A stretch of DNA of 64,000 nt from Pseudoxanthomonas suwonensis 11-1 (GTDB taxonomy: Bacteria; Pseudomonadota; Gammaproteobacteria; Xanthomonadales; Xanthomonadaceae), in contig NC_014924.1 in NCBI RefSeq assembly GCF_000185965.1, forward strand, positions 992,001-1,056,000. The letters run 5' to 3'. Under the pieces are notes generated by a model. It worked only from the letters and a program-made list of their open reading frames with translations. It was not told the DNA's origin and did not search any database. Positions 34,547 to 41,736 of the stretch are shown piece by piece. A program made the position numbers and the translations under genes. The number at the start of each line of letters is the position of its first letter. Positions within the stretch are counted from its first letter, which is position 1.

Positions 34547-36217
34547 GTTCGGTCCGCTGCGCTCGGAAGGGCGCGCGCGGCGGTCGAAGATCAGCGCGCT
34601 CAGGGCGATGGTGATGCCGAGCGCGGCACCAACCAGGAACAGCAGCACCGCCAGCACCGGATAGCCGAACAGGGTCGCCTGGGTCTCGATCCGCATCAGC
34701 ATCGCCGAGGACATCAGCAGCGCCGCGGTCACCACCGCCGCGGCGATGCGGTTGGCGATCTTCTGCATGTTCTCCATGATCCTGGAGTGGTCCAGGCCAT
34801 CGAGCCGGACCTGCATCTTGTTCTCCGCCAGCAGCGAGAGCGTGTCGGAGATCTTGCGCGGCGCGTCGCGCAGCAGTGCCTGCACCTCCAGCGCCTCGCT
34901 GGCCATGTTGGCGGTGGAGAACGACCGCCGCAGCTGCTTGCGCATGATCGACTGCAGGTGTTCCTCGACCACCTCCTGCACGTCCATCTCCGGATCCAGC
35001 GCATCGACCACCCGCTCCAGGTTGAGCAGGGTCTTGCCGAGCAGGCTGATCTCCGGAGGCACGCGCAGGCCGCGCTCGGCGGCACAGGCGACCAGTTCCA
35101 GCAGCAGCCGGCCCTCGGAAGTGCGCTTGCCGCCGGTGGCGTAGCGGGCCACCAGCTGTCCCGTGTCGCGGGCAAAGGCGGCGTCGTCGAACTGCTCCAG
35201 GCGGGTACCGATCGCCACCAGCTCGCGGGCCACGTCCTCGCCGCGCGCGTCCACCGCGGCGAACAGCAGCTTGAGCAGGCGCTCGCGCATGCGCGGCGCG
35301 ACCTGGGCGACCATGCCCAGGTCGATCAGGGCCAGGCGGCCGTCGCGGCACAGCAGCACGTTGCCCGGATGCGGATCGGCGTGGATGTCGCCGTTGACGA
35401 ACACCTGGTCCAGGTAGGCGCGCATCAGCTCGGAGGCCGGCGTGCACAGGTCCATCTCGGTGCGCTGCAGGCCGGTGACCGAGGTGACCTTCTCGCCGTG
35501 CACCAGCTCCATGGTCAGCACCCTGGAGGTGCTCAGGCCCCAGATCGGCGCCGGCACGAGGAGGTGCTGGTACTCGGACAGGCTTTCGCGGAAGCGCTCG
35601 AGGTTCTCGGCCTCGCGGCGGTAGTCCAGTTCCAGCAGCAGGATCTTGCGGAACTCGGCGATCCAGTCGGCGAAGCGCAGGCGGCGGCCGGCCTGGGTCA
35701 GGGCGTCTGCAGTCCCGGCGAGGCTGGCCAGCACTTCCAGGTCCAGGCGGATGGCGGCATCCATGCCCGGGCGCTGGACCTTGACCGCGACCTCGCGGCC
35801 GTCGCGCAGGGTGGCGCGGTGCACCTGGGCCAGCGAGGCGGCGGCCAGCGGCACTGGATCGAAGCTGGCGAATACGCGGCTGATCTTCGCGCCAAGCTCC
35901 TCCTCGATGATCTTCTCGATCACCGCCGTCTCCACCGGCCCCACCTCGTCCTGGATGCGGTCCAGCGCGTCGATGTAGGCGGCAGGCACCAGGTCGGGGC
36001 GGGTCGAGAGCGACTGGCCGAGCTTGATGAAGGCCGGCCCCAGCACCTCGAGGTCGGCGGCGAAGGCCTTGGCCTCGGCCACTTCGGACACGGTGCCGGC
36101 GGTCGGCTCCACCGCCGGCGCCGCGCTCCAGTCCATCCCGGAAAGGATGCGGCGATGGCGCGCGAGGCGGCTGACGACCTGGGTGGTGCGGGTGAGGCGG
36201 CGGCTGGTTTCTGGCAA
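34544..36217 (-). CDS. ABC1/UbiB-family atypical kinase
   Basis: A 557-residue protein with the UbiB/ABC1 kinase-like motifs: IKLGQSLSTRPD at 64-75 (the KxGQ signature), AASLAQVHRA at 126-135, VAVKVQRPG at 143-151 with the conserved Lys, HADPHPGN at 279-286 and LIDLG at 297-301. Two hydrophobic helices close the protein (about 490-548). The family supports ubiquinone synthesis and quinone handling as ATPases. No ubi genes are adjacent here, so it could be a second ABC1 kinase rather than UbiB itself. The frame is convergent with dapE; upstream lies the asnB regulatory region. Confidence 0.85.
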   Translation of the reverse strand: MPETSRRLTRTTQVVSRLARHRRILSGMDWSAAPAVEPTAGTVSEVAEAKAFAADLEVLGPAFIKLGQSLSTRPDLVPAAYIDALDRIQDEVGPVETAVIEKIIEEELGAKISRVFASFDPVPLAAASLAQVHRATLRDGREVAVKVQRPGMDAAIRLDLEVLASLAGTADALTQAGRRLRFADWIAEFRKILLLELDYRREAENLERFRESLSEYQHLLVPAPIWGLSTSRVLTMELVHGEKVTSVTGLQRTEMDLCTPASELMRAYLDQVFVNGDIHADPHPGNVLLCRDGRLALIDLGMVAQVAPRMRERLLKLLFAAVDARGEDVARELVAIGTRLEQFDDAAFARDTGQLVARYATGGKRTSEGRLLLELVACAAERGLRVPPEISLLGKTLLNLERVVDALDPEMDVQEVVEEHLQSIMRKQLRRSFSTANMASEALEVQALLRDAPRKISDTLSLLAENKMQVRLDGLDHSRIMENMQKIANRIAAAVVTAALLMSSAMLMRIETQATLFGYPVLAVLLFLVGAALGITIALSALIFDRRARPSERSGPN

Positions 36218-36317
36218 GGCGGTGTCTCCGCGAGTACTGCATGGCCGGCGCCGGGTGCGCCGTGGGCGGAGTATTGGCGGGCCTGCGTGAGCGAGGCGTC
36301 AGTTGCCAAGGCAACGG

Positions 36318-36346
36318 TTGCGGTGCCCCCGGCGCGCGGTTAGTGT
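36318..36346 (+). promoter_or_regulatory. Candidate promoter of the asnB leader
   Basis: TTGCGG (36318-36323) and TAGTGT (36341-36346) are 17 bases apart. The -10 ends six bases before the leader-peptide ATG, so transcription would start at that ATG. The rest of the 36218-36352 gap shows only a small GTTGCC-AA-GGCAAC hairpin. Confidence 0.45.
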
Positions 36347-36352
36347 CGCCCC

Positions 36353-36451
36353 ATGCCTTCGATCAGCCGCGCCAATCCGGCCAATGCCAACCGCAACAAT
36401 ATTGCGGGGAATAACCGTGCGCGACCGATGCGGGGGCGCCACCGGGCCTAG
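36353..36451 (+). CDS. Asparagine-rich leader peptide of asnB
   Basis: A 32-codon open frame: MPSISRANPANANRNNIAGN, then NRARPMRGRHRA and TAG. Seven of its codons specify Asn (at 36374, 36383, 36389, 36395, 36398, 36410 and 36413), extraordinary in such GC-rich DNA and matched to the product of the next gene, asparagine synthetase. It has no Shine-Dalgarno sequence; the candidate -10 lies six bases upstream, so it may be translated from a leaderless mRNA. By analogy with his, leu and trp leaders, ribosome stalling on the Asn codons when Asn-tRNA is short would control the hairpins downstream. I infer this; the peptide itself needs no other function. Confidence 0.85.
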   Translation: MPSISRANPANANRNNIAGNNRARPMRGRHRA

Positions 36452-36505
36452 GCAGGAACAGGCCGGCGAACGACGAGACCCGCATCGACCGATGCGGGTT
36501 TTTTT
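36426..36505 (+). promoter_or_regulatory. Transcription attenuator of asnB (antiterminator/terminator)
   Basis: Three segments compete. Segment 2 (36426-36434, CGATGCGGG) lies within the last codons of the leader peptide. Segment 3 (36479-36487) is its exact complement, nine pairs. Segment 4 (36491-36499) also pairs with segment 3 and is nearly the same sequence as segment 2. An inner stem (36437-36440 and 36445-36449 with 36460-36468) brings 2 and 3 together. A ribosome stalled at the Asn-Asn pair (36410-36415) would reach to about 36426 and leave segment 2 free, so 2:3 forms and transcription continues. A ribosome reaching the TAG at 36449 would cover segment 2 and allow the terminator. A clear segment 1:2 hairpin is not visible beyond five pairs (36391-36395 with 36429-36433). 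Confidence 0.82.
36478..36505 (+). terminator. Attenuator terminator hairpin before asnB
   Basis: A 9-bp stem (36478-36486 with 36491-36499), GACC loop and a run of seven Ts at 36499-36505. It is a strong intrinsic terminator placed 60 bases before the asnB ATG. Confidence 0.92.
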
Positions 36506-36565
36506 GTGCCCGGCACCGGAGTGCGACCAGACACCCACGCAGCATCCATCCCAGGAGTCCTTCCA

Positions 36566-38260
36566 ATGTGTTCGATCTTCGGCATCTTCGGCCTGCAACC
36601 GGGCGATGACCTGCAGGACCTTCGCCGGCAGTCGCTGGACCTGTCGCAGCGCCAGCGCCACCGCGGCCCCGACTGGAGCGGCGTGTACGTGGACGCGGGC
36701 GCGATCCTGGTGCACGAGCGCCTGGCCATCGTCGATCCGGCCGGCGGCTCGCAGCCGCTGCTGTCCGAGGACGGCGGGCTGGCGCTGGCGGTCAATGGCG
36801 AGATCTACAACCACAAGCTGCTGAAGGACGGGCTGCGGCAGCCGTACGCGTTCCAGACCGCGTCGGACTGCGAGGTGATCAACGCGCTGTACCGCGAGGA
36901 CGAGCCGGCCTCGTTCCTCAACCGGCTCAACGGCATCTTCGCTTTCGCCCTGTGGGACAAGGCGAAGGGGCGCGCGATCATCGCCCGCGATCCGATCGGC
37001 GTGGTGCCGCTGTACTGGGGCCATGACCGCGAAGGCCGCCTGCGCGTGGCCTCGGAGATGAAGTCGCTGGTGGAGGAGTGCGCCGACGTCGCCCAGTTCC
37101 CGCCCGGCCACTGGTACGACACCGCCACCGGCGAACTCACGAAGTACTACGAGCGGCCGTGGCGCGACTACGACGCGGTCGAGGGCGTGGAAGTCACGCC
37201 TCAGGAACTGCGCGAGGCGTTCGAGGCGGCGGTGCACCGCCAGCTGATGACCGACGTGCCCTACGGCGTGCTGCTGTCCGGCGGCCTGGATTCGTCGCTG
37301 GTCGCGGCGGTGGCCGCGCGTTACGCCCGCCATCGCGTCGAGGATGGCGACCAGACCGAGGCCTGGTGGCCGCGCCTGCACTCGTTCGCCATCGGCCTGG
37401 AGGGTTCGCCCGACCTGGCAGCGGCCAAGGTTGCCGCCGAGGCGCTGGGCACCGTGCACCACGGCTTCGAATACACCTTCGAGGAAGGCCTGGACGCGCT
37501 GCCGGAGGTGATCCGCCACATCGAGACCTATGACGTCACCACCATCCGCGCCTCCACGCCGATGTTCCTGCTCGCGCGCCGGATCAAGGCCATGGGAGTG
37601 AAGATGGTGCTGTCGGGCGAAGGCAGCGACGAGGTGTTCGGCGGTTACCTGTACTTCCACAAGGCACCGAACGCGCGCGAGTTCCACGAGGAGCTGGTGC
37701 GCAAGCTCGACGCGCTCAACTTCTATGACTGCCTGCGTGCCAACAAGTCGATGATGGCCTGGGGCGTGGAGCCGCGCGTTCCGTTCCTGGACCGCGAGTT
37801 CCTCGACGTGGCCATGCGCATGGACGCCAAGTACAAGATGGTGCTCAAGGGCAGCGACGGCCCGCAGCGGATGGAGAAGGGCATCCTGCGCCAGGCCTTC
37901 GACGGCTACCTGCCGCCGGAGATCCTGTGGCGGCAGAAGGAGCAGTTCAGCGACGGCGTCGGCTACGGCTGGATCGACGGCCTCAAGGCGCATGCCGAGG
38001 CCCAGGTCTCCGACCGCGAGCTGGCCGCCGCCGACAAGCGCTTCCCGGTCAACCCGCCGCAGACCAAGGAGGCGTACTTCTACCGCACCCTCTTCGAGCG
38101 CTTCTTTCCGGGCCAGGCCGCGGCGGAAACGGTGCCGGGCGGCAAGTCGATCGCCTGTTCCTCGCCCGCGGCGATCGCCTGGGACGCCAGCTTCGCGAAG
38201 ATGGCCGACCCATCCGGTCGCGCGGTGGCAGGCGTGCACAACGAGGCGCTGGCGGGGTGA
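36566..38260 (+). CDS. asnB: Asparagine synthetase B (glutamine-hydrolysing)
   Basis: A 564-residue enzyme making asparagine from aspartate, ATP and glutamine. The N-terminal nucleophile is Cys2 in MCSIFGIFG; the glutaminase domain shows RGPDWSG, RLAIVDP, NGEIYNH. The synthetase domain has the pyrophosphate loop LLSGGLDSSL and the later LSGEGSDEVFGGY. Length is close to E. coli AsnB (554). AGGAG at 36553-36557, eight bases before ATG, is the ribosome binding site. Transcription must cross the Asn-peptide attenuator, so expression should rise when charged tRNA-Asn is scarce. It is monocistronic, followed by repeat-like palindromes. Confidence 0.97.
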   Translation: MCSIFGIFGLQPGDDLQDLRRQSLDLSQRQRHRGPDWSGVYVDAGAILVHERLAIVDPAGGSQPLLSEDGGLALAVNGEIYNHKLLKDGLRQPYAFQTASDCEVINALYREDEPASFLNRLNGIFAFALWDKAKGRAIIARDPIGVVPLYWGHDREGRLRVASEMKSLVEECADVAQFPPGHWYDTATGELTKYYERPWRDYDAVEGVEVTPQELREAFEAAVHRQLMTDVPYGVLLSGGLDSSLVAAVAARYARHRVEDGDQTEAWWPRLHSFAIGLEGSPDLAAAKVAAEALGTVHHGFEYTFEEGLDALPEVIRHIETYDVTTIRASTPMFLLARRIKAMGVKMVLSGEGSDEVFGGYLYFHKAPNAREFHEELVRKLDALNFYDCLRANKSMMAWGVEPRVPFLDREFLDVAMRMDAKYKMVLKGSDGPQRMEKGILRQAFDGYLPPEILWRQKEQFSDGVGYGWIDGLKAHAEAQVSDRELAAADKRFPVNPPQTKEAYFYRTLFERFFPGQAAAETVPGGKSIACSSPAAIAWDASFAKMADPSGRAVAGVHNEALAG

Positions 38261-38455: not shown

Positions 38456-39223
38456 CTAGTTGCGCAGCAGTTGCTCCACCAGCAACGGCAGTCCCACCGC
38501 GGCGCTGAGCGGCACGTGGTGCATGGGGCGGACGCCTGGCGCACCCGGCTGCGGATTGACCTCCACCACCACCGCATCACGCGGCGCCAGGCCGACCAGG
38601 CCTGCCGCCGGCTGGACCACGCCGGAGGTGCCGACCACCAGCAGCAGGTCGCAGGTGGCGATGCGTTCCTGCGCCTGCTGCCAGACGGTGTCCTCGAGCA
38701 TCTCGCCGAACCAGACCACGCCCGGACGCACTTCACCGCCGCAGTGCGCGCAGCGCGGCGGATCCAGCCGCCGCTGCGCCGCGCCCGGAGGTGACGGCAT
38801 CAGCGGGTGCGGCGCCGCGCAGTCGAAGCAGCGCGGCGCGAACAGGCTGCCGTGCAGGTGCAGTGCGCCGGCCACGCCGGCGCGCTCGTGCAGGTCGTCC
38901 ACGTTCTGGGTGACGACCTGCGCGCCCAGCGCCTGCTGCAACCGCGCCACGGCCAGGTGGCCCGGATTGGGCCTGGCCTGCATCACCAGGCCGCGCCGCC
39001 ATTCGTACCAGCCCCAGACCAGGGCGCTGTCGCGCCGCCAGGCCTGCGGCGTGGCCAGCTGCTGCGGATCGAACGCGTGCCACAGGCCGTTGCTGCCCGA
39101 GCGGAAGGTGGGGATGCCGCTGTCGGCGGACATGCCGGCGCCGCTGAACACCACGATGCGTTCGAAGCGGCGCGCCAGCGCCTGTTGCAACGAGGGATCG
39201 AGGACGACGTCTTCCATCGGCAT
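38456..39223 (-). CDS. cobB: NAD-dependent protein deacylase, sirtuin
   Basis: A 255-residue Sir2-family enzyme removing acyl groups from lysines using NAD. Motifs: VVFSGAGMSADSGIPTFR, TQNVDDLHERAG with the catalytic His in LHLHGSL, four zinc Cys (CFDC and CAHC), and VVGTSGVVQPAA. The pair Tyr and Arg in WYEWRR matches the YxxR of class III desuccinylases/CobB, so succinyl removal is likely besides deacetylation. Start may be the first or third codon (MPM). It lies three bases from the stop of the upstream acylase gene, so the two are cotranscribed. Confidence 0.92.
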   Translation of the reverse strand: MPMEDVVLDPSLQQALARRFERIVVFSGAGMSADSGIPTFRSGSNGLWHAFDPQQLATPQAWRRDSALVWGWYEWRRGLVMQARPNPGHLAVARLQQALGAQVVTQNVDDLHERAGVAGALHLHGSLFAPRCFDCAAPHPLMPSPPGAAQRRLDPPRCAHCGGEVRPGVVWFGEMLEDTVWQQAQERIATCDLLLVVGTSGVVQPAAGLVGLAPRDAVVVEVNPQPGAPGVRPMHHVPLSAAVGLPLLVEQLLRN

Positions 39224-39226
39224 GGA

Positions 39227-41593
39227 TCAGCGATCGACAGCCGCCGGCTGCAGCGTGAGCGTGTGCAGCGCGGGGCCGGGCAGGAAGGGTGTCGGCCGCC
39301 CATGCACCCAGTCGTCGTGGCCGGCGCCCCAGAACGGCGAAAGCGGATGGCCACTCTGGCCGCCAGGCATGTGCGCCAGGCCATCGGCCTCGTGGCCGGG
39401 TGCGACCACCATGCGCTCAGAAGCGCCAAAGCCCGGCCCTTGTACCCGCGGCACCGTGGTGTCGCCGCGCAGCGGCTCGGCGCGCATGCACAGGCGGCGC
39501 GCCAGTGCGGCGGGCATGGCTCCAGAGAGCGGGTGGCAGATGCGCGCGGTATTGCGTTCGCCCCAGCGGCGTTCCGGCAGGGGGCCGGCCTCGACCAGTC
39601 CGTCGCGGACCTCGATGGCGGCATCCTCCAGCAGCGCCTCCCAGCTAGCGAAACCCGCCGGCAGCAGGTGCGCGGGGCGTTCGCGCAGCAGCGGCCACGC
39701 CACGCCGTCCAGCTGCGGGAACCCGGGCAGCTCGAAATCCTCTTCGAGACGAGCCAGCGCCGGCGCGGCCAGGCCGTTGGCGATGCGCGTGTGCACGGCC
39801 AGGCGCAGGCTGCGGACGATGCGGTAGGCCACCGATTCCGGCGCGGCATGGCCATTCCAGTCGTCGCTGGCATCGGCCAGTTCGCGCAGCGCCGAGCCGG
39901 CGGCCGCGCGCTGGCCTTCCGCGGCCAGCAGGTGGTGCCAAGGCTCCAGCAGCAGGGCCTGGTCGTCCAGCTGGATCGCCAGCAGCGCCTGTTCGTCGAA
40001 ACGTCCGGCCCCGTGCAGGCGCTTGCGGATCTGCCAGGCGCGGATGCCATGGGCGTAGCCGGCATCGCCCACGCGCGCCAGCGCGTCGCCGTCGAGCGTG
40101 CGCGCGTTGGCGGTCCACAGGCGATGGTCCGGCGGATCGCGCAGCACGGGCACGGCCTGGGTGGTCATCGACCATGGCGTGCACGAGGGGATCGTTCCGT
40201 CGGGCTGCAGGCCGGTGCAACGCGGCTCGCGCGCGGGCAGCGGGCCGAGGATCCGCCACGCGATGCGGCCGCCACGGTCGGCGATGACCAGGTTCTGCGC
40301 CGGAATCGCGACGGTCTCGGCGATGGCCAGCGCCTGGTCCAGGTCGGCGGCAGTGGCGAAGTGGGCAAGGCCGAAGTTGAGTGCGCCTGGCAGGTGGGCG
40401 ACCCAGCGCAGGGCCAGGGCCTGGCCGTCCACGTCGTGGTGGATGACCGGACCGGCGGCGGTCTCGAGGACCTCCACGCGTACGTCCTTACCCCCGGCGA
40501 CGTGGAGGGTCTCCTCGTGGCGCATCACCGGATCGCAGTCGCCGGCCTGCCCCTCGGCACAGGGTCGCACCGGGAACCAGTCGGCGGTGTCGGCATAGGC
40601 GTTGGTGAAGCCCCAGGCGATATGGCCGTTGCTGCCCACGATCACCGCCGGCAGGCCGGGCAGGGAGAAGCCGCTGACGTCGACCTTGCCACCGGGCGCG
40701 GCCGGATCCGGATAGCGCAGGCGCACCCGGAACCAGATGTTGGGCGCGCGCAGGCCCAAGTGCATGTCGTCGGCGACGATGGCGCGGCCGTCGGCGGTCA
40801 GGGCGCCGGCCACGGCCCAGTTGTTGCTGCCGGGCGCGGCCGGATCGGGCAGGGCCTGGCCGGGCGTGGCGGGGGATCCCAGCTGGCCCAGGTCGACGCT
40901 GGCGGCATCCGGCAGCACGGCCTCGCCGCGGGCCTCGCCCAGCAGCGGTGCGTCCCACTGGCTGCCGTCGCGCAGCAGCAGGTCGCGCAGTGGCGCCGGC
41001 AGGTTCCTGCCCAGCCGCCACAGCGCCAGCTCACGGCTGTTGTTCGAGTCCTGCAGGTCGAAGTACATGGCGTAACCGGCCAGGGCCGAGTCCTCCACCT
41101 TCCAGGGACGGGGCTGCTGGCGCAGCAGCAGGTAGGCCCAGGGGCGCGCCCGCAACGCGGCCAGGCCGGCGTTGACGCCCTCGGCGTAGGCCTGCAGCTG
41201 CGGCAGGCGCTCGCCGGCAAAGGCATCGAGGTTGGCCTCCACGCGTGCGCGCAGGCGGTGCGTCCGCCGCTCGCGGTCCATCTCCAGGGCGCGAGTGCCG
41301 AACAGTCCGGCCAGCTCCCCGGCGGCGCTGCGCCGCATCAGGTCCATCTCGAAATAGCGTTCCTGGGCGTGGACGTAGCCCAGGGCGCGCACGGCATCGA
41401 CCTCGCTGGCCGCATCGATGGTGACGATGCCCAGGGCATCGCGCTGCACGGTCACTGGTGCGGACAGGCCGGCCAGCGGCGGCTCGCCCTCCAGCGCCGG
41501 CAGGCTGCCGCGCAGCATCAGCCAGGCGGCCGCGGCCAGCACGACCAGGACCAGCAGCAGCGCGCAGGCCGCGCGCAGGAACCATCTGGGCAT
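39227..41593 (-). CDS. Penicillin acylase family N-terminal-nucleophile hydrolase
   Basis: A 788-residue precursor of the penicillin G acylase/acyl-homoserine-lactone acylase family. A membrane or signal helix spans residues 8-27. The self-cleavage site is visible as [11 protein letters not shown], with Ser256 as the new N-terminal nucleophile of the beta chain, followed by ADDMHLGL. Members hydrolyse amides such as beta-lactam side chains or quorum-sensing AHLs in the periplasm; the true substrate is unknown. I chose ATG 41593 because the hydrophobic helix follows directly; 32 further codons upstream are open but poor in signal-like character. Confidence 0.88.
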
Positions 41594-41736
41594 TGGGTTT
41601 TCCGGGACGGGGCGCCAGTGGCGCGGGGCGTGCGGTCGGGGCGCCGGGGCACCTGCAACTGCGACTGATTCCGATTGAAACATGGCCACCGCGCTTGCGG
41701 CACACTGCAGGCCTGCACCACCCGAGGAGTTCCCCC

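Follow-up and report, generated by a model that had tools for sequence, protein, structure and literature searches.

Evidence for a probable asparagine-specific leader-peptide attenuator upstream of asnB in Pseudoxanthomonas and related bacteria

The asnB gene of Pseudoxanthomonas suwonensis 11-1, encoding a glutamine-hydrolysing asparagine synthase, lies in a 64,000-nucleotide (nt) stretch of DNA (hereafter the window; GC content, 71%). Its start codon, the ATG at 36566, is preceded by a short open reading frame (ORF) rich in asparagine (Asn) codons and by an intrinsic terminator (Table 1). From its sequence and from comparison with relatives, we conclude with high confidence that asnB is preceded by an asparagine-specific transcription attenuator of the classical, ribosome-mediated type. 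The ORF at 36353-36451 is translated as MPSISRANPANANRNNIAGNNRARPMRGRHRA-stop, with Asn codons at 36374, 36383, 36389, 36395, 36398, 36410, and 36413. Among the 244 ORFs of 10-60 codons in the window, it was the richest in Asn, the runner-up having 4 Asn codons of 57. A first-pass annotation of this DNA had noted the 32-codon frame, its seven Asn codons with five at 36389-36415, and two Asn-Asn pairs; all these coordinates proved correct. As it had also stated, asnB follows shortly 3' of the terminator, about 60 nt separating the end of the T run at 36505 from the asnB ATG.

Table 1. Features of the asnB leader region (positions in the window)
Feature	Position	Strand	Basis
-35-like box TTGCGG	36318..36323	+	sequence; 17 nt before -10 box
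-10-like box TAGTGT, ending 6 nt before leader ATG; predicted leaderless start	36341..36346	+	sequence, relatives
Asn-rich leader peptide ORF, 32 codons, 7 Asn, stop TAG 36449-36451	36353..36451	+	sequence; leader in 96/99 related loci
Control-codon cluster: five Asn codons, two Asn-Asn pairs	36389..36415	+	sequence; Asn 9.4-fold over shuffles, 96 leaders
Segment 2, 5' arm of antiterminator, within leader ORF	36426..36434	+	exact complement of 36479-36487; pairing kept in relatives
Intrinsic terminator: 12-bp stem, 9-bp core 36478-36486/36491-36499, loop GACC, T7	36475..36505	+	sequence, folding, relatives
Segment 3, 3' arm of antiterminator, overlapping terminator 5' arm	36479..36487	+	complementarity, comparison with relatives
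Shine-Dalgarno-like CAGGAG region 5' of asnB	36551..36557	+	sequence
asnB, glutamine-hydrolysing asparagine synthase	36566..38260	+	NF006949 equivalog, asparagine synthase B, 868 bits, cut-off 499

Segment 2 within the leader ORF (CGATGCGGG) shows exact complementarity over 9 bp to segment 3. The terminator stem reaches 12 bp when its A-T extension is included (36475-36486 with 36491-36502), and the T run covers 36499-36505. The nine-pair antiterminator, mutually exclusive with a terminator ending in seven Ts, was thus found exactly where it had been predicted. An automated promoter and terminator scan of the window flagged neither a promoter nor a terminator here. It was silent on the promoter because its -10/-35 rule is stricter than the leader boxes, and the terminator is taken to have escaped its rule probably through the stem running into the T run.

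For comparison, the AsnB protein was used as a query against 60 related genomes, from which 30 loci were taken, together with the best 80 of 584 named genome contigs; among these best 80, the closest named relative was Pseudoxanthomonas suwonensis, with 97% identity to AsnB of the present genome. After deduplication 101 distinct loci were obtained, two of which (L062 and L097) end before the upstream region, leaving 99 readable. In 96 of the 99, a leader of 12-50 codons was detected that contains three or more Asn codons and lies behind a TTG[CA] box, the distance from the box to the leader start being 30-41 nt; 93 carry at least four Asn codons. Such leaders were found in records of Pseudoxanthomonas, Xanthomonas, Stenotrophomonas, Thermomonas, Luteimonas, Lysobacter, Dyella, Luteibacter, Rhodanobacter, Fulvimonas, and Dokdonella. 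The first-pass annotation had proposed an alignment of asnB upstream regions as a check for conserved Asn codons and competing pairings; both recur there, favouring an attenuator. Analyses of 97 leaders omit L016, L027, L062, L074, L097, and L101. Locus L082, of which the stop was mis-assigned by the script (its leader is MIRIAAVNANTNNPRDRGRVGV), was kept in the 97-leader counts and dropped from the 96-leader set; L112 could not be placed and was not used. Tandem leaders at L016 were rejected as probably a scaffold artefact, since identical stretches flank a run of N. Genome G014 was excluded from the counts, its leader frame being disturbed, its assembly 57% complete, and its asnB match in pieces. 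The collection also includes an asnB of 74% identity in a Rhodococcus sp. record (L101) and one of 81% identity in a Holophagales metagenome-assembled genome (L074), both pointing to transfer or contamination.

The position of the promoter was examined in the 67 leaders with a single candidate ATG, defined as one followed by at least three Asn codons. Relative to the leader ATG, the TTGC box begins between -37 and -35 in 66 of the 67, and a -10-like hexamer starts at -13 or -12 in 58, as judged by a broad pattern set after the data had been seen. The gap between the -10 box and the ATG was 6 or 7 nt in 95/97 leaders, a count in which the choice of start itself used the promoter score. A Shine-Dalgarno-like motif was detected before asnB in 86/96 loci and before the leader in 15/96. 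These observations altogether suggest that the leader is probably leaderless, its transcript starting at or within one base of the leader ATG.

The amino acid sensed by this device was then considered. The median leader contains 6 Asn in 32 codons, and an Asn-Asn pair is present in 92 of the 97 distinct leaders. Within 3244 codon positions of these leaders, 616 Asn codons were counted in the leader frame, and the two alternative frames had 4 and 10; together with the 7 of 32 codons in the window, this identifies a short, translated-looking ORF with an excess of codons for the amino acid that AsnB makes. Both codons are used (AAC, 332; AAT, 284), and from this interchange the amino acid must be what selection keeps. 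An ATG frame of 15-45 codons with at least four Asn was observed in 94/97 distinct leader loci, and in 21/1940 dinucleotide shuffles of the upstream DNA. The signal might instead be a general drop in translation, another amino acid such as Arg or Ala, or free asparagine binding the RNA in the manner of a riboswitch or T-box. Ala accounts for 18.7% of leader residues and Arg for 16.2%, and RNA free of ribosomes forms the terminator, so that translation initiation matters too. The enrichment over shuffled leaders was, however, 9.4-fold for Asn against 1.8-fold for Ala and 1.2-fold for Arg (96 leaders), and the downstream gene makes asparagine. Moreover, no Rfam family, T-box included, matched at its gathering score within 36200-36700 or at the loci of six relatives; in Rfam 15 the Thr, Leu, and Trp leaders gave sub-threshold matches at 36200-36700 (best, 16.4 vs 55, 16.2 vs 50, and 13.2 vs 41 bits). 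A signal other than Asn-tRNA is therefore considered very unlikely.

The ORF could also encode a small, Asn-rich protein that serves a separate function, in which case the terminator would only separate it from asnB and read-through into asnB would be constitutive. In favour of this, Pseudoxanthomonas and Xanthomonas leaders show strong conservation of the peptide end NNRARPMR, but the same end encodes segment 2; leaders of Lysobacter types end in LP[QR]AGD and those of Rhodanobacter types in WRARA, with the RNA pairing kept, and the N-termini of the leaders are unalike. In 36 distinct aligned rows, the core codons of segment 2 were near-invariant (CCG in 33, ATG in 34, CGG in 35), whereas the Asn pair near segment 2 varied synonymously (AAT 27/AAC 8 and AAT 21/AAC 13). 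The Arg codon directly 5' of the core also varied (CGG 28, CGA 8), and codon bias may contribute to the constancy of CCG and CGG. Synonymous drift at the Asn codons beside near-fixed core codons thus allows constraint at the peptide level to be separated from constraint at the RNA level. In addition, a covariance model, built from 37 loci including some from the same genomes later searched, gave 48 hits at E <=1e-8 among 149 genomes of the family. Every one of the 48 precedes asnB, as established from coordinates for 46 and by reading for two located at contig ends. A small protein acting on its own is hardly to be expected here.

In 95/97 leaders a lax script detected a hairpin followed by a T-rich tail (four or more T among 8 positions), so that an intrinsic terminator separates leader from structural gene in these as at 36475-36505 of the window. 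In the other two (L080 and L081) a hairpin is visible by eye, with a short and interrupted T run. The pairing between the leader end and the 5' arm of the terminator spans 5-16 bp across loci. When the partner of segment 2 was taken as the best match, the median antiterminator score was 24 with the terminator of the same locus, 18 with terminators of other loci, and 13 for shuffled segment-2 regions, of which 0.5% reach 24. The paired arms vary by group and yet stay complementary: CGGCCGATGCGGG/CCCGCATCGGCCG, GCAGGCC/GGCCTGC, CGCGGGC/GCCCGCG, and GGCGGGCC/GGCCCGCC.

Compensatory changes in the arms, named as support in the first-pass annotation, were sought in three alignments holding 74 of the 97 leaders; the other 23 were not placed in them, and some rows of the third alignment are misaligned by 1-2 bases. 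In the Lysobacter-type set (14 loci, which share ancestry and do not represent 14 independent events), the fourth residue from the leader end is split evenly between Gln (A; 7 loci) and Arg (G; 7 loci). The facing base of segment 3 is T with Gln and C with Arg in 14/14, giving seven A-U pairs, seven G-C pairs, and none broken. The terminator partner of this covarying base is G in 13/14 (U-G in 6, U-A in 1, C-G in 7), leaving a wobble pair in the terminator of 6 of the 7 Gln-type loci. In the Rhodanobacteraceae-type set (23 sequences), 91.8% of cells were paired, and shuffles reached this pairing in 5/500 and the covariation score in 0/500. In the Xanthomonas/Pseudoxanthomonas set (37 sequences), 95.4% of cells were paired, with little variation. 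Compensatory changes thus support the pairing in the first two sets, while the third is too invariant to say.

The effect of ribosome position was examined by folding with the ribosome footprint masked and the rest of the RNA kept. For stalls at Asn15, Asn16, and Asn20, the antiterminator formed in full (9/9) with polymerase at 36488-36492. For a ribosome at the stop codon, with its footprint starting from 36431 or 36428, no antiterminator pair was formed and the terminator was complete (9/9) by 36508. Folding free of ribosomes gave 0/9 antiterminator and 9/9 terminator pairs. A simpler fold, omitting RNA upstream of the ribosome, formed the antiterminator for stalls from Asn13 to Asn21; its outcome at the stop codon is true by construction, as upstream RNA is omitted. 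A mutually exclusive antiterminator 3' of the control codons is thus indicated in the window, in relatives, by folding, and by covariation in two sets.

Several observations weigh against the attenuator. The leader is absent from L027 (76% identical asnB), L074, and L101. In 10/95 loci the best match to segment 2 lies more than 24 nt before the stop-codon end or behind it, and so is not the expected partner. The outermost antiterminator pair tested is broken in 8/14 Lysobacter-type loci, and shuffles of the Xanthomonas/Pseudoxanthomonas set matched its pairing in 251/500 and its covariation score in 174/500. With upstream RNA kept, a stall at Asn21 gave no antiterminator; the claim that a ribosome stalled on 36410-36415 leaves segment 2 free holds for Asn20 and fails for Asn21. 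A stop-codon footprint starting from 36434 allows a transient antiterminator (8/9) before the terminator completes, and segment 2 of the window sits further from the stop than in other groups: its end lies 9-10 nt from the stop-codon end in 47/95 loci, and 17 nt in 16/95 including the window. Covering of segment 2 by a ribosome at TAG 36449, likewise part of the first-pass annotation, is borne out if the footprint reaches 36431 and not if it reaches only 36434. Given this distance and the dependence on footprint, the full-translation branch is the weaker step. Finally, the full transcript at equilibrium preferred the terminator in each case tried; the antiterminator must therefore form first, and the order of synthesis matters, as in other such systems.

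Comparison establishes the frame, the Asn codons, the terminator, the antiterminator pairing, and the promoter position; from these we infer stalling, read-through, and a physiological response as follows. Transcription would begin at the leader ATG or one base from it, and RNA polymerase would be followed closely by a ribosome translating the leader. Under a shortage of charged Asn-tRNA, this ribosome would stall on the Asn codons at 36389-36412 with segment 2 left free; segment 2 would then pair with segment 3 and block the terminator, allowing asnB to be transcribed and asparagine to be made. When Asn-tRNA is plentiful, the ribosome would reach TAG 36449 and interfere with segment 2, and once segment 2 is masked the terminator would end transcription about 60 nt before asnB. 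In the absence of translation, segment 2 is predicted to stay unpaired with segment 3, so that the default would also be termination. The hairpins might mainly govern ribosome access to asnB, that is, translational attenuation, for which the Shine-Dalgarno-like motif at 86/96 asnB loci is a possible target. However, a stem followed by T7 is an intrinsic terminator, the distance from hairpin end to asnB ATG is 25-222 nt (median 57) at leader loci, and in the window the asnB start region lies outside both arms, making this mode of control very improbable. A spurious ORF beside a terminator, conceivable in DNA of such GC content where hairpins are common, is refuted by the relatives (conservation, frame control, shuffles, and covariation) and can be dismissed.

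As to the distribution of the attenuator, the Asn codons, the terminator, and the complementarity between segments 2 and 3 recur at orthologous asnB in the same family and in two other families of the order (f2 and f12); for the f12 locus (L028, genome G055), the leader is Asn-rich and the best antiterminator match is weak. The leader was present in 13 of 15 further loci of the family, hand-picked mostly from places at which the covariance model gave a weak match or none; two of the 13 (L192, and L198 with a GTG start) were missed by the script and recovered by eye. No leader was found at any of four divergent, 64%-identical asnB copies of the family (L120, L123, L193, and L194, the last two being the failures among the 15), which suggests that the regulated gene was replaced by one under other control. 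Likewise, none was found before asnB in the eight loci from families of the order besides f1, f2, and f12 (L119, L121, L122, and L124-L128), and no convincing leader in 23 class-level loci that were read. Matches outside the order had been obtained in 39 class-level genomes. At three class-level loci (L162, L171, and L175), Asn-rich small ORFs precede asnB in DNA of lower GC content, with no visible GC-rich hairpin and T run; these are either chance or another form of Asn leader. Any match to the covariance model (E <=0.01) was obtained in 98/149 family genomes, including opposite-strand and branched-chain leaders, and a close asnB in 132/149. The model misses divergent leaders, as those of G020, G030, G034, and G035 were not matched. 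A degenerate DNA pattern for NNRxRxMR occurred once in the genome of the window and once each in 21/149 family genomes including it, and the reversed control pattern gave no match in the 149. The device is therefore old within one clade, where it travels with orthologous asnB.

Asparaginyl-tRNA synthetase (AsnRS) was detected above the curated cut-off in 58/60 relatives, including the genome of the window, in which GatB and AsnA were not found; free Asn is therefore the only evident route to Asn-tRNA there. The attenuator would complete a simple closed loop, in which Asn produced by AsnB is loaded onto tRNA by AsnRS and the leader senses the charging; a bypass through GatB or AsnA was not found in this genome. 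The attenuator would account for asnB regulation in the soil, plant-associated, and opportunistic bacteria of this group. The same genome encodes a second, distant AsnB-like protein (751-amino-acid frame, 39% identical over residues 1-168). No leader was found before its asnS, nor a His leader within the 500 nt read at its hisG, which had been chosen as a positive control.

On the side opposite asnB, the leader region is bounded by a divergent UbiB-like gene on the minus strand with its start at 36217 (TIGR01982, 341 bits, under the cut-off of 487.55). Downstream, minus-strand ORFs at 38456-39223 and 39227-41689 are oriented head-on toward asnB; judged from translations alone, they resemble a Sir2-type deacylase and a penicillin-acylase-type hydrolase, respectively.

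Classical leader-peptide attenuators control the trp, his, leu, ilv, thr, and phe operons of proteobacteria. Like these, the asnB leader has a short ORF in which codons for the end product abound, a strand common to antiterminator and terminator, and a biosynthetic gene on its 3' side; it differs in sensing, as proposed, asparagine, and in having asnB downstream. T-box elements for Asn in Firmicutes sense Asn-tRNA charging before Asn genes, the tRNA binding the RNA directly. The asnB leader is proposed to sense the same charging, but here through a leader ORF and with no T-box match. In Rfam and in the open-licence literature searched, a limited body, no Asn leader peptide was found, in line with the suggestion of the first-pass annotation that a proteobacterial Asn leader may be undescribed. 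An asparagine-specific attenuator is strongly supported by sequence comparison; relative to that literature and to Rfam 15 on the stretches searched, it would be a new case within a well-known mechanism. Leader-peptide attenuation would thereby extend to asparagine, with an evolutionary record that runs deep within one order.

A branched-chain leader of similar plan lies upstream of ilvC in the same genome (L178; G000:C1:485000-487200, minus strand), with the end SLLLVVLITSPTGAGRAGV, an antiterminator, a terminator, and probably a leaderless start; a gene matched by TIGR00118 follows ilvC, the leader being upstream of ilvC instead. By eye, it follows the plan of the asnB leader, with a -35 box (TTGACA), an ATG about 7 nt after a weak -10-like stretch, LLLVVLI as its control codons, GTGCGGG as segment 2 ahead of the stop, and a CCCCGCAC...GCGGGG-T6 terminator. 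It differs in its branched-chain codons and in the gene controlled. The Asn-leader covariance model matched it weakly (E 4.9e-6), and Rfam gave no match to it up to E 1. Weaker hits of the model (L181-L183) also resemble branched-chain leaders. A leaderless attenuator leader has already been reported for trpL of Sinorhizobium meliloti, in which the ATG of the leader ORF is the 5' end of the RNA (PMC7298713). The asnB leader probably shares this arrangement; the S. meliloti case concerns Trp in an alphaproteobacterium, and a function in trans is reported for its rnTrpL. The asnB gene might read both Asn-tRNA charging and the capacity for initiation at leaderless ATGs, failure to initiate leading to termination, and its terminated RNA of about 150 nt might, like rnTrpL, be a stable leaderless small mRNA acting in trans, although we consider this unlikely. 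Leaderless starts and leader-peptide attenuation seem to go together in this order, as the asnB and ilvC leaders suggest.

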